Shown here piece after piece: positions 43,301 to 49,100 of a stretch of DNA of 64,000 nt (within the stretch, counting starts at the first letter, position 1; every line of letters begins with the position of its first letter). Source of the DNA: Prescottella defluvii (GTDB taxonomy: Bacteria; Actinomycetota; Actinomycetes; Mycobacteriales; Mycobacteriaceae); the NCBI RefSeq assembly GCF_000738775.1, contig NZ_JPOC01000020.1, positions 124,001 to 188,000 on the forward strand, given 5' to 3'. Below the pieces are notes generated by a model that searched no databases, was not told where the DNA came from, and saw only the letters and a program-made list of their open reading frames with translations. Position numbers and translations under genes: made by a program.

Positions 43301-46092
43301 TCGCGGCGCCGGACGGGCACCGGGATCCCGGCTATCTGCTGGACGTGCTGCGCGACGAGCGGGTCACCACCCTGCACGTCGTTCCGTCGATGCTGTCGAT
43401 GCTCATGACGACCGCCGACGGCGGGCTGCCGGATTCGCTGCGCCGCATCTTCGCGATCGGCGAGGCGCTGCCGGCGGCCACCGCACAGACGTTCCGCGCG
43501 CACAACACCGCGGCCCTGCACAACCTGTACGGGCCGACCGAGGCCGCGGTGTCGGTGACGCACCACGAGGTGACCGACGCGGACACCGTCGTCGTCCCGA
43601 TCGGTGTGCCGGAGTGGAACACTCGCGTGTACGTCCTCGATGCACGCCTGAACCCGGTGCCCGCCGGGGTGACGGGCGAGCTGTACCTCGCGGGTGCGCA
43701 ACTGGCGCGCGGCTACCACGGTCGGGCGGACCTCACGGCCGACCGGTTCGTCGCGGACCCGTGGGCTGGTGGTGAGCGGATGTACCGCACCGGTGACGTG
43801 GTGCGGTGGAATGCCTCCGGTGAACTCGAGTACGTCGAGCGCGCCGACTTCCAGGTGAAGGTCCGCGGCTTCCGCATCGAACTCGGCGAGATCGAGGCGG
43901 CGCTGCGGGAACTGCCGACGGTGCGCGGGGCCGCGGTCACCGCACACGCGGACAGCCACACGGGCACCCGCCTGGTGGCGTACCTCGTCGCCGACAGCGA
44001 CACCGACACGTCTGCGGTGCAGGACGCTCTCTCGCGGACACTGCCGTCGTACATGGTGCCGTCGGCGTTCGTGGTGCTCGAAGCCCTGCCGCTCAACACG
44101 AACGGCAAGCTCGACCGCCAGGCGCTGCCGGCGCCGGTGTTCGAGACTCGCGACTTCCGGGCTGCGACGACACCGCTCGAGGAGATCGTGGCCGGCGTCT
44201 TCGCGGACGTGCTCGGCGTGCCACGGGCCGGGCTGGACGACGACTTCTTCGAACTGGGCGGCAACTCGCTGGTCGCGACGCAGTTGGTGGCGCGACTCGG
44301 CGCCGCGCTCGACACCCAGGTGCCGGTGCGCCTGGTGTTCGAGGACTCCACCGTCGCCGGCGTGGTGGCCGGGGTGACGCCGCTCGTGGGTCGCGGTGCT
44401 CGCGCCGCGCTCACGGCCGGGCCACGCCCGGAGCGGATTCCGTTGTCGCTCGCGCAGCAGCGGATGTGGACCCTGAACCAGGTCGATCCGGGTTCGTCCG
44501 CGTACAACATCCCGGTCGCGGTGCGACTGTCCGGTGCGCTGGACACCGCGATCCTGCGGGCCGCGGTGGCCGATGTCATCGCGCGGCACGAGGTGCTGCG
44601 CACGATGTATCCGGACACGGCCGACGGTCCGGCGCAGGTGCTGGTACCGGTCTCCGACGTGGCACCGGACCTCGCGCCGGCGACGGTGACCGAGGCCGAG
44701 ATCGTCGACCGCCTCGTCGAATTCGTCGGACGCGGATTCGACGTCACCACCGAGGTGCCCGTCCGTGCGGCGCTGTTCGCGGTGGCCGAGACCGAGCACG
44801 TGCTCGCGTTCGTCGCCCACCACATCAGCGCCGACGGCTTCTCGATGGGGCCGCTCGTCCGGGACGTCATGCTCGCGTACATCGCGCGGGTGGACGGTGG
44901 TGTGCCGCAGTGGCAGCCGCTGGACGTGCAGTACGCGGACTTCAGTCTGTGGCAGCGCGCGGTGCTCGGCGCCGAGTCCGACCCGGACAGCCCGGTGTCG
45001 CGTCAGGTCGCGTACTGGGCGGACGAGTTGCGGGGCGCTCCGGAGCTGTCGGCGCTGCCGACGGACCGTCCGCGTCCGGCCCGGCCGTCGATGGCCGGCG
45101 CCACCGTCGACGTCGACATCGACGCGGATCTTGCGGCGCGCGTGGAGAACACGGCCCGCGAGCAGGGCGCGACGACGTTCATGGTGTTCCATGCGGCGCT
45201 GGCGGTGTTGCTGTCGCGGCTCGGGGGCTCCGACGACGTCACGGTCGGCACCCCGGTCGCCGGTCGCGGTGAGGCCGCGCTCGACGATCTGATCGGCATG
45301 TTCGTCAACACCCTCGCCCTCCGCACACGGGTCGAGCCGGGCGCGCCGTTCACGGACCTGCTGGCCCAGGCCCGGGAGAAGGACCTCGCCGCATTCGGCA
45401 ACGCCGACGTCCCGTTCGAGCAGGTGGTGGACGCCGCCGGTGCGCGCCGCTCGGGCGCGTACACGCCGCTGTTCCAGGTGATGCTCACGTTCCAGAACAT
45501 CGACACGGGCACCTTCGCGTTGCCGGGCCTCGAGGTGTCGGCACTGGATCTCGGCGGTGATCAGGCCAAGTTCGACCTGCAGCTCACCGCGGTCGAGCAG
45601 TACGACGCCGACGGCGGGCTCACCGGTATCCGGGCGATGTTCACGTACGCCACGGACCTGTTCGACCCCGACACCGTCGCGGTCTTCGCCGATCGGTTCG
45701 TGCGGATCCTCGACGCGGTCACCGAGAATCCGTCGATCGTCCTGCGGGCGATCGACGTGACGACCGATGCCGAGCGGGAGGCGCTCGAACCGAAGAAGCA
45801 GCTCACGGTCGACGACCTCCCCGAACTGGTCGCGGGCGCCGCGCAGGTCGCGCCGGACACGGTGGCGATCGCGCACGCCGGCACCGACGTCACGTTCGGC
45901 CAGTTGCACGCCAAACTGGCGGCGACGGCCACCGCGATGGGCGGGGCGTTGAAGCCCGAGGCCCTGACGACCGTCGCGTTGTCGGGTCTGCTGCCGGGCA
46001 TCCTCCCGGCGCTGGGTGCCGACGGGTACCAGGCGGCTGTCGCGGGCATGATCGCCGAGGCGTCGGCGATCATCGAGGGCGGACACGAGTGA
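25360..46092 (+). CDS. Nonribosomal peptide synthetase 1: six C-A-T modules plus a lone C domain
   Basis: A giant synthetase of about 6,910 residues. Order: C1-A1-T1, C2-A2-T2, C3-A3-T3, C4-A4-T4, C5-A5-T5, C6-A6-T6, C7, then a 96-residue A-like remnant. Each A domain has the YTSGSTGxPKG-type P-loop, TGD and NxxGKLDR motifs. Each T domain has GGNSL with the phosphopantetheine serine (about residues 1020, 2091, 3141, 4198, 5246, 6303). Each C domain keeps HHxxxDG. The frame is open from 25174, but conserved sequence begins only at about 25426. I prefer TTG 25360, because GGAAGAGAGG lies eight bases upstream; GTG 25330 is an alternative. C1 is of starter type, so this protein begins the peptide. 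C7 lacks its own A-T and must receive the residue loaded on NRPS2. Confidence 0.95.
25426..28540 (+). other. NRPS module 1: starter C - A1 - T1
   Basis: C1 (residues 22-455) differs from the other C domains: it opens with [20 protein letters not shown] and has [10 protein letters not shown], like EntF-type starter condensation domains that accept an acyl or aryl group instead of a peptide. A1 (475-975) pocket residues read by eye are D-V-W-D-F-I-L-V-S-K, close to the serine family but with no firm match. T1 serine is at about residue 1020 in [12 protein letters not shown]. Confidence 0.85.
28591..31740 (+). other. NRPS module 2: C2 - A2 - T2
   Basis: C2 has [12 protein letters not shown]2 (from residue 1544) has pocket residues D-A-W-Q-F-G-L-V-Q-K, identical to module 4 and resembling one glutamine-type code (DAWQFGLIDK, from memory). 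A short insert, [12 protein letters not shown], sits just after the TGDLVRW motif. T2 serine is at about residue 2091. Confidence 0.85.
31801..34890 (+). other. NRPS module 3: C3 - A3 - T3
   Basis: C3 has [12 protein letters not shown]3 (from residue 2610) belongs to a second A-domain family in this system, marked by [19 protein letters not shown] and [20 protein letters not shown]. Its pocket residues are D-A-L-F-V-G-A-V-A-K, identical to module 8; I do not assign an amino acid. T3 serine is at about residue 3141. Confidence 0.85.
33648..33890 (+). repeat. Duplicated A-domain core, copy 1 (A3)
   Basis: From the P-loop through the FDASILE pocket motif, this is nearly identical at DNA level to 50211-50450 in A8; a second shared patch follows around the YGPTE motif (about 34046-34130 and 50602-50690). 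The flanks differ much more. Confidence 0.8.
34948..38070 (+). other. NRPS module 4: C4 - A4 - T4
   Basis: C4 has [12 protein letters not shown]4 (from residue 3662) pocket residues are D-A-W-Q-F-G-L-V-Q-K, the same as module 2, so both modules should load the same amino acid (possibly glutamine). T4 serine is at about residue 4198. The A4-T4 DNA shares long stretches with A5, A9 and A11. Confidence 0.85.
38119..41205 (+). other. NRPS module 5: C5 - A5 - T5
   Basis: C5 has [11 protein letters not shown] and carries VGTLVLR where the other C domains have VNTLVLR. A5 (from residue 4714) pocket residues are D-V-W-S-Q-A-L-V-H-K, which match no code I know. T5 has [13 protein letters not shown], with serine at about residue 5246. 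Confidence 0.82.
41263..44385 (+). other. NRPS module 6: C6 - A6 - T6
   Basis: C6 has [12 protein letters not shown]6 (from residue 5767) pocket residues are D-L-W-H-F-I-L-V-S-K, related to the module 1 and serine codes but with Ile at the site where serine domains have Ser. The A8-like region reads VERADFQVK instead of the usual GRxDFQVK. T6 serine is at about residue 6303. Confidence 0.82.
44437..45790 (+). other. Lone condensation domain C7 at the end of NRPS1
   Basis: Full-length C domain (from residue 6360; [11 protein letters not shown] intact) with a slightly divergent first motif, [14 protein letters not shown]. No A or T domain follows in this protein, so C7 must join the six-residue chain on T6 to the amino acid loaded by A7-T7 of NRPS2. 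Confidence 0.9.
45802..46092 (+). other. C-terminal truncated A-domain remnant of NRPS1 (candidate docking domain)
   Basis: The last 96 residues begin [19 protein letters not shown], like the start of an A domain (compare [19 protein letters not shown] of A3), and then stop before any ATP-binding motif. The segment aligns without gaps to residues 11-81 of NRPS2: 27 of 71 positions are identical by eye, including LTV-DLP, VT, AMGG-L and LS...PG. It is therefore a candidate docking partner. Confidence 0.7.

Positions 46093-49100: not shown

Follow-up and report, generated by a model that had tools for sequence, protein, structure and literature searches.

How do two proteins of a nonribosomal peptide synthetase (NRPS) line find each other when the line has been cut between a condensation (C) domain and the adenylation (A) domain that follows it? 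The question is raised by a stretch of 64,000 nucleotides from Prescottella defluvii (RefSeq assembly GCF_000738775.1, contig NZ_JPOC01000020.1, positions 124,001 to 188,000 of the forward strand), referred to here as the window. It holds most of an NRPS line of 13 C domains that is divided among three proteins, with NRPS1 running from C1 to C7, NRPS2 from A7 to C10 and NRPS3 from A10 onward, and both breaks of the line fall between a C domain and the next A domain. At the first break, the end of NRPS1 and the beginning of NRPS2 carry two pieces that resemble the start of an A domain, designated Xc and Xn, respectively. We think it probable, if by no means assured, that Xc and Xn dock to each other across the C7/A7 split, and the X pair would most likely constitute a new class of C/A docking module.

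All feature coordinates given below are window positions on the forward strand. C7, the final C domain of NRPS1 and the seventh of the 13 on the contig (C20), was located by a Pfam scan at 44434..45786 (PF00668, E 3.8e-94; C20:168434-169786) and is joined by a linker to Xc, a truncated A-domain start of 95 aa at 45805..46089 that is followed by the stop codon of NRPS1 (46090-46092). After a gap of 91 bp (46093..46183), NRPS2 begins with an ATG at 46184 and passes through a short variable tail of 11 aa (46184..46216), the 92-aa core of Xn (46217..46492), which is likewise a truncated A-domain start, and a variable linker (46493..46528) to A7, a complete A domain at 46544..47626. About 109-115 residues precede this first A domain of NRPS2, for which the Pfam AMP-binding match (PF00501, E 7e-91) covers residues 121-481.

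A sequence-only reading of the window had placed the break between C7 and A7 and had described homologous pieces on its two sides, aligned without gaps at 27 of 71 identical residues counted by eye. The Pfam domains do place C7 before Xc and A7 after Xn, and the homology has been confirmed for the 95 aa of Xc and the 92-aa core of Xn. BLASTP of the pair alone gives an ungapped alignment with 26 of 67 residues identical (E 6e-14), profile-profile comparison aligns 95 columns (E 1.3e-26), and the local BLOSUM62 score of 134 compares with a mean of 35.5 (sd 6.7) and a maximum of 66 in 2000 shuffles. Against the ordinary A-domain starts of NRPS1-3, Xc reached at most 69 in 12 comparisons and Xn at most 85 in 11, the twelfth start having been dropped because the stretch overlapped Xn itself. 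An Xn profile that contains the window's Xn gave 34 matches in the whole 5.1-Mb source genome, which has affinity to Rhodococcus/Prescottella; the best were Xn at 157 bits and Xc at 84, followed by a stretch inside another NRPS at 26 bits. Xc is the closest kin of Xn within the genome by this profile. A separate search for X in the genome gave two hits at E<=1e-7, both at the C7/A7 break, and no other NRPS joint of the genome carries an X at that threshold.

As judged from their sequences, Xc and Xn are copies of one family of about 95 residues, here called X, that was derived from the N-terminal quarter of an A domain, and X cannot be a working A domain because it ends before the ATP loop. 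That the pieces stop there had been noted at the outset, and both indeed end ahead of the TSGSTG motif, with the later core motifs absent too. In profile searches Xc and Xn align with A-domain starts in PDB chains (LgrA 209-268 and other solved A domains); with alignment A5, all 33 PDB matches, on sequence comparison only, were NRPS or adenylation proteins, the best of them at A-domain starts. By hhalign, X and A-domain starts share 56 columns (E 1.2e-7), and the homology to the N-terminal part of A domains spans some 56-60 residues. Outside this aligned part lies a conserved C-terminal half that is X's own, with the motif LSxLxPGxLPxLGAxG in Xc. Pfam at E<=1 returned no family for Xc and no AMP-binding match for Xn, and just 2 of 36 X members match PF00501 at all, weakly (best E 0.015) and short of its curated cut-off. 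An ordinary A domain is thereby ruled out, since X has no significant Pfam match. TubC_N, which we take to be the Pfam name of the betaHD docking domain, is not among the eight Pfam families matched by any of the 36 members at E<=1.

In the arrangement that we propose, Xc at the end of NRPS1 would bind Xn at the start of NRPS2, and the resulting heterodimer would probably be pseudo-two-fold because the partners are homologous. The complex would keep C7 next to A7 and its thiolation (T) domain T7 in trans, standing in for the covalent C-A joint, and some such joint is called for, since T7, which C7 has to meet, sits on the other protein. Xc may in addition fill part of the usual C-A platform, since it lies directly after C7, where an A domain would start. 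On the evidence of the alignment and of A-domain structure, a single X would contain one strand of an A-domain sheet (LVPVVLS-like) with its flanking helices, so that pseudo-two-fold pairing of two copies is a natural guess.

Conservation of the break, selection and range

Scanning of the genome collection yielded 46 related loci, 40 of which were examined for the break. C-Xc at the end of one protein and Xn-A at the start of the next are present in 38 of the 40 (the exceptions being L057 and L059), and X elements on the facing ends of consecutive subunits are found in 39 of 41 loci when the window and these exceptions are counted. The six loci outside the 40 (L062, L063 and L065-L068) gave no X above 28 bits in a scan with a hidden Markov model (HMM). 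The nearest named relatives of Xc and Xn, in L023, L058 and L061, are 81-88% identical to them. From stop to start the distance in the related loci is 0-170 bp. The closeness of the stop and the next ATG might suggest that NRPS1 and NRPS2 are really one protein, separated by an assembly or frameshift artefact; the chance of this is negligible and we regard it as ruled out, because 38 of 40 loci from other genomes share the break, and in four loci the ATG comes directly after the stop.

Xc and Xn also travel together in loci that were chosen by Xc. In a first such sample Xn adjoins Xc in 11 of 13 loci, and in a twelfth (L183, genome G028) both are kept some 10 kb apart; in a second sample Xn adjoins Xc in 30 of 33, a set that shares two loci with the first sample and includes some genomes of species already among the 46 loci. 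Within the window's own genus (g1) a strong match to Xc was obtained in 10 of 14 genomes, and two genomes (G118 and G173) have only the X of a fused line that is described below.

Selection on the pieces was estimated as the ratio of nonsynonymous to synonymous substitution (dN/dS) in 39 sequences, i.e., those of the 38 loci and the window, with 477-741 of 741 pairs usable per region. The median ratios are 0.30 for residues 1-70 of Xc, 0.29 for residues 1-70 of Xn and 0.275 for the C domain, with 0.74 for the NRPS2 tail and 0.85 for the Xn-A linker, all of which are relative values only because they come from the simple NG86 method with the proportion of synonymous differences (pS) near 0.56. 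Seventeen columns are invariant in Xc and 15 in Xn. With dN/dS near the level of the C domain, X looks like a working domain rather than a leftover. Functionless remnants of A domains, decaying after the loss or fission of a module, could be expected to look like truncated A-domain starts, as these pieces do, but such an origin is very improbable in the face of purifying selection near the C-domain level, the invariant columns, the conserved half that is X's own and the recurrence of X in another line; a decaying relic is ruled out by the dN/dS values.

The family appears to have a narrow range. Matches were obtained in 7 of 298 genomes of an order-wide sample (E<=1e-9) and in 4 of 396 of a phylum-wide sample (E<=1e-8), every one of them in the window's own GTDB family, and X is likely to be absent outside it. 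Only 11-17 candidates per genome were scored in these scans and in another of 301 genomes; the 218 genomes that matched in the latter at E<=0.001 are not a count of X, because that threshold admits ordinary A-domain starts.

Internal, single and free-standing copies

X is also found in a second NRPS line of about 11.3k residues, which occurs in several genera and in most genomes read is one unsplit chain. The unsplit chains carry X twice (X1 and X2), two modules apart, and both copies were present in every one of the nine chains read at the two places (L107-L111, L143, L145-L147); G017 has one clear copy, its X1 reaching only the level of an A-domain start. In two genomes of genus g21 (G021 and G081) the second line consists of two proteins, broken at the first X joint with an X on each end, and in G021 the unusual A-domain start after the joint matches that of the fused relatives. 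These split lines seem to lack X2, and their domain order differs. A probable third line, in G038, G287, G104 and G012, has a clear Xc (50-59 bits with a broad HMM) and, in all four, a diverged second piece before the A-domain start of the next protein. Stretches that resemble ordinary A-domain starts reach about 44 bits with the broad HMM, so the weak copies, namely X1 of G017 and Xn of the third line, are assigned by their position.

In a tree of 95 columns and 90 rows, in which many forks are open and the bootstrap is unsettled, Xc, Xn and the internal copies of the second line form one clade (98/93) separate from the window line. The window group comprises 60 rows (96/86); 29 of its 30 Xn form a single clade (100/95) that lies among the Xc, and the remaining one comes from third-line locus L142. 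These clades suggest that the two-ended state may have come from a single X between C and A at least twice, or that split and fused states interchange. The claim that the C7/A7 break holds a matched pair derived from an A-domain start is supported by profile matches, conservation, selection and recurrence in a second and probably a third line. Random occurrence of similar pieces inside NRPSs had been named as a finding that would count against it; internal copies do exist, but singly and at conserved C-A places.

A number of observations weigh against docking as the role of the pair. In the unsplit chains of the second line each X stands alone between a C and an A domain, and 'X only at protein ends' is ruled out by the internal and free copies. 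Three genomes of genus g22 (G121, G250 and G294, the last being in both Xc-chosen samples) keep Xc and have an NRPS2 that opens with the A domain itself. In L138 and L141 no Xc adjoins Xn, no second X was found within 4-8 kb upstream in L184-L186, and there are orphan X-headed NRPSs in genus g6 (G036, G056 and G298) and in G027. In two g1 genomes, G091 and G105, the NRPS2 end of the second break is retained and no window-line X was seen, the pieces of the line being at contig ends. The third-line Xn, at 18-28 bits, does not surpass ordinary A-domain starts under the same HMM. Constraint is weaker in the outer quarter of X (dN/dS 0.44 in Xc, 0.39 in Xn), the C-Xc linker, at 0.40, is little looser than X, and the purifying selection could by itself stem from a role that each piece has in its own chain. 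Finally, in a mirror-tree analysis the distances of Xc and Xn are only weakly correlated once C and A have been accounted for (partial r 0.124, p 0.074). The rule 'always two X per line' fits many cases and is broken by the g22 genomes, with Xc only, and by the extra or orphan Xn of G036, G056, G298 and G027. The idea of docking by paired ends therefore fits the window and needs qualification elsewhere, the pieces not being confined to protein ends and three g22 genomes having Xc alone.

Three of these observations (the single X of unsplit chains at the same two conserved joints, Xc without Xn in g22, and the weak co-variation of Xc and Xn beyond that of C and A) would also be expected if X were a spacer in cis, lying against the C or A domain of its own chain as part of the C-A platform, the splits merely adjoining it and the two ends not being partners. 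We consider such a spacer rather unlikely: it has no need of X on both sides of split joints, which is seen in two lines and probably a third, it does not provide for X as free-standing proteins, and the source genome has no X at any of its other NRPS joints.

The X-headed NRPSs of L185, L186 and L141 in g6 are extra to the window line and lie on the same contig as a window-line Xc, tens of kb off; they are possible alternative partners of NRPS1.

Free-standing X proteins occur in the five genomes read of genera g10, g16 and g18, where genes for two such small proteins, f1 and f2, lie on either side of an MbtH-like gene, immediately ahead of an NRPS with internal X domains (L181 5858-7261, L182 5938-7384, L194 5570-7103, L198 5434-6965 and L199 5856-7165). 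MbtH was confirmed by Pfam in two of the five, and Pfam gave no family for f1 or f2 in the one genome tested. The f1 profile matches X at E 6.5e-12 over 86 columns and A-domain starts at 2.4e-4 over 43; for f2 the values are 1.7e-8 over 74 columns and 3.1e-5 over 33. A search of 41 genomes for f2 gave strong matches (143 bits or more) in 10, a match of 58 bits in G012 and three that are weak or doubtful; f2 was not found in eight fused-line genomes (G173, G118, G005, G013, G060, G023, G049 and G017), so a free X is not required, and the notion of a free X partner for every internal X is unsupported.

Other small or reduced X genes were seen in passing. Further f2-type small proteins are encoded at L204 5481-5960, L207 2144-2494 and L206 7099-7485, the g10 case lying a few kb past the end of an NRPS, and in G012 (L205 6119-13157) the f1/f2 pair and the NRPS are separated by ribosomal-protein genes, one of them L2 by Pfam. 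In genus g27, two genomes (L179 4087-4863 and L180 5262-5615) carry a free X gene next to one that Pfam identifies as a carboxylesterase gene, and a third, G027 (L138 3179-12916), has an X-headed NRPS beside a gene that by eye is of a similar carboxylesterase type. The free X gene of g27 resembles what would remain of an NRPS after loss of everything but the X head, with the open frame kept.

Given the internal, free and Xn-less cases, docking may be one use of a general interaction domain, a reading that overlaps with docking at the C7/A7 break. We regard it as quite possible, if short of probable, that X is a homotypic domain of this kind, in which X1 and X2, or an internal and a free X, also pair. 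The joint presence of X1 and X2 in all nine fused chains and the position of f1 and f2 around the MbtH gene in five genomes argue for it; the eight fused-line genomes in which f2 was not found, the one clear X of G017 and the apparent lack of X2 from the split g21 lines argue against it. More tentatively, the several settings could be joined in one scheme, in which X is a homotypic pairing domain carved from the A-domain N-terminus in one actinobacterial family. Such a domain would couple C to A in trans as X:X' at split joints, pair through internal copies within or between unsplit chains, and act in trans as a free X encoded with MbtH, and new docking joints would arise by local duplication of X when a chain splits.

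The second break and the rest of the window

The second C/A break of the line lies at 55973-57200. NRPS2 (46184..56920) ends in a degenerate A domain (56114..56830; PF00501, E 6.5e-18) that has no ATP-loop motif and holds a conserved stretch of 10 residues, and the facing end of NRPS3 (57038..64000) has a basic tail and then the complete A10. With the degenerate end of NRPS2 and Xc, both breaks thus carry a non-catalytic piece derived from an A domain after the last C domain. This NRPS2 end is kept in 12 of 14 g1 genomes searched, the source genome included (L149-L160), and similar ends occur in other genera (L161, L163 and the Nocardia loci L066 and L067).

NRPS1 occupies 25174..46092, an open reading frame of 6972 aa with C1 to C7, six A domains and then Xc. 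Its start codon is uncertain (25174-25600), the GTG of the frame being well upstream of the first C-domain match. NRPS3 extends past the window and has, by eye, a thioesterase (TE)-like end outside it. The other large NRPSs of the genome that were read by eye are single chains with TE-like ends or, on contig C3, a pair without X ends. Upstream of the line (283-24444) are genes for an EutB-like ethanolamine ammonia-lyase, an AMP-binding ligase, a Fis-type regulator, an alcohol dehydrogenase, a carboxyltransferase, an acyl-CoA dehydrogenase, a CitE-like lyase and a branched-chain amino-acid ABC transporter, none of which has an obvious membership in the NRPS cluster.

Comparison with known docking systems

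If Xc and Xn do dock, they would represent a new type of joint, in which two homologous pieces allow the division of a module between C and A, and an example of assembly lines building docking elements out of catalytic domains of their own. The pair would also be a candidate tool for NRPS engineering, which usually leaves the C-A interface intact. The docking idea is directly testable because the family has natural split, fused and free-standing versions.

The sequence-only reading had named no described docking class of this form, and searches of the open-licence literature of PubMed Central (PMC) found no description of a homologous, A-derived pair at a C/A joint. In the parts available, genome surveys of Rhodococcus and Nocardia (PMC5550956, PMC4035055, PMC7413640) make no mention of such ends, and the corresponding parts of PMC6563249, PMC10587159, PMC8692599 and PMC5183585 do not describe such a pair.

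Three docking classes are named in the part of PMC9113145 consulted: COM domains, which act at junctions of an epimerization and a C domain (E/C) through a helix that binds a hand within the downstream C domain; PAX domains, which act at junctions of a peptidyl carrier protein (PCP) domain and a C domain and form a three-helix bundle from unlike partners; and beta-hairpin docking (betaHD) domains, the TubC type. X resembles all three as a small non-catalytic element on facing ends of NRPS subunits that keeps, or in the case of X would keep, the subunits in order (PMC9113145). It departs from COM in that the upstream domain is C, the downstream domain is A and the pieces are about 95 aa long, and from PAX in its C/A junction and homologous partners. 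The partners of COM and PAX are unlike each other, and that part of the paper describes no A-domain origin for them (PMC9113145), whereas the X partners are homologous pieces of about 95 aa derived from A domains. To A domains themselves (PF00501), X is homologous over some 56-60 residues of their N-terminal part, and it differs from them in having no ATP loop and a C-terminal half of its own.

The nearest published idea, in the portion of PMC11186497 available, is the PCP-like adaptor domain (BN) of TomB in tomaymycin synthetase, a four-helix bundle by which the donor PCP is brought to a C domain. Like X, it is a degenerate, non-catalytic copy of an NRPS core fold at the end of a subunit; its target is a genuine domain with the same fold (PMC11186497). 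The adaptor of TomB is PCP-like and is present on one side only, whereas X is a piece of an A domain and is present on both ends (PMC11186497 for TomB).

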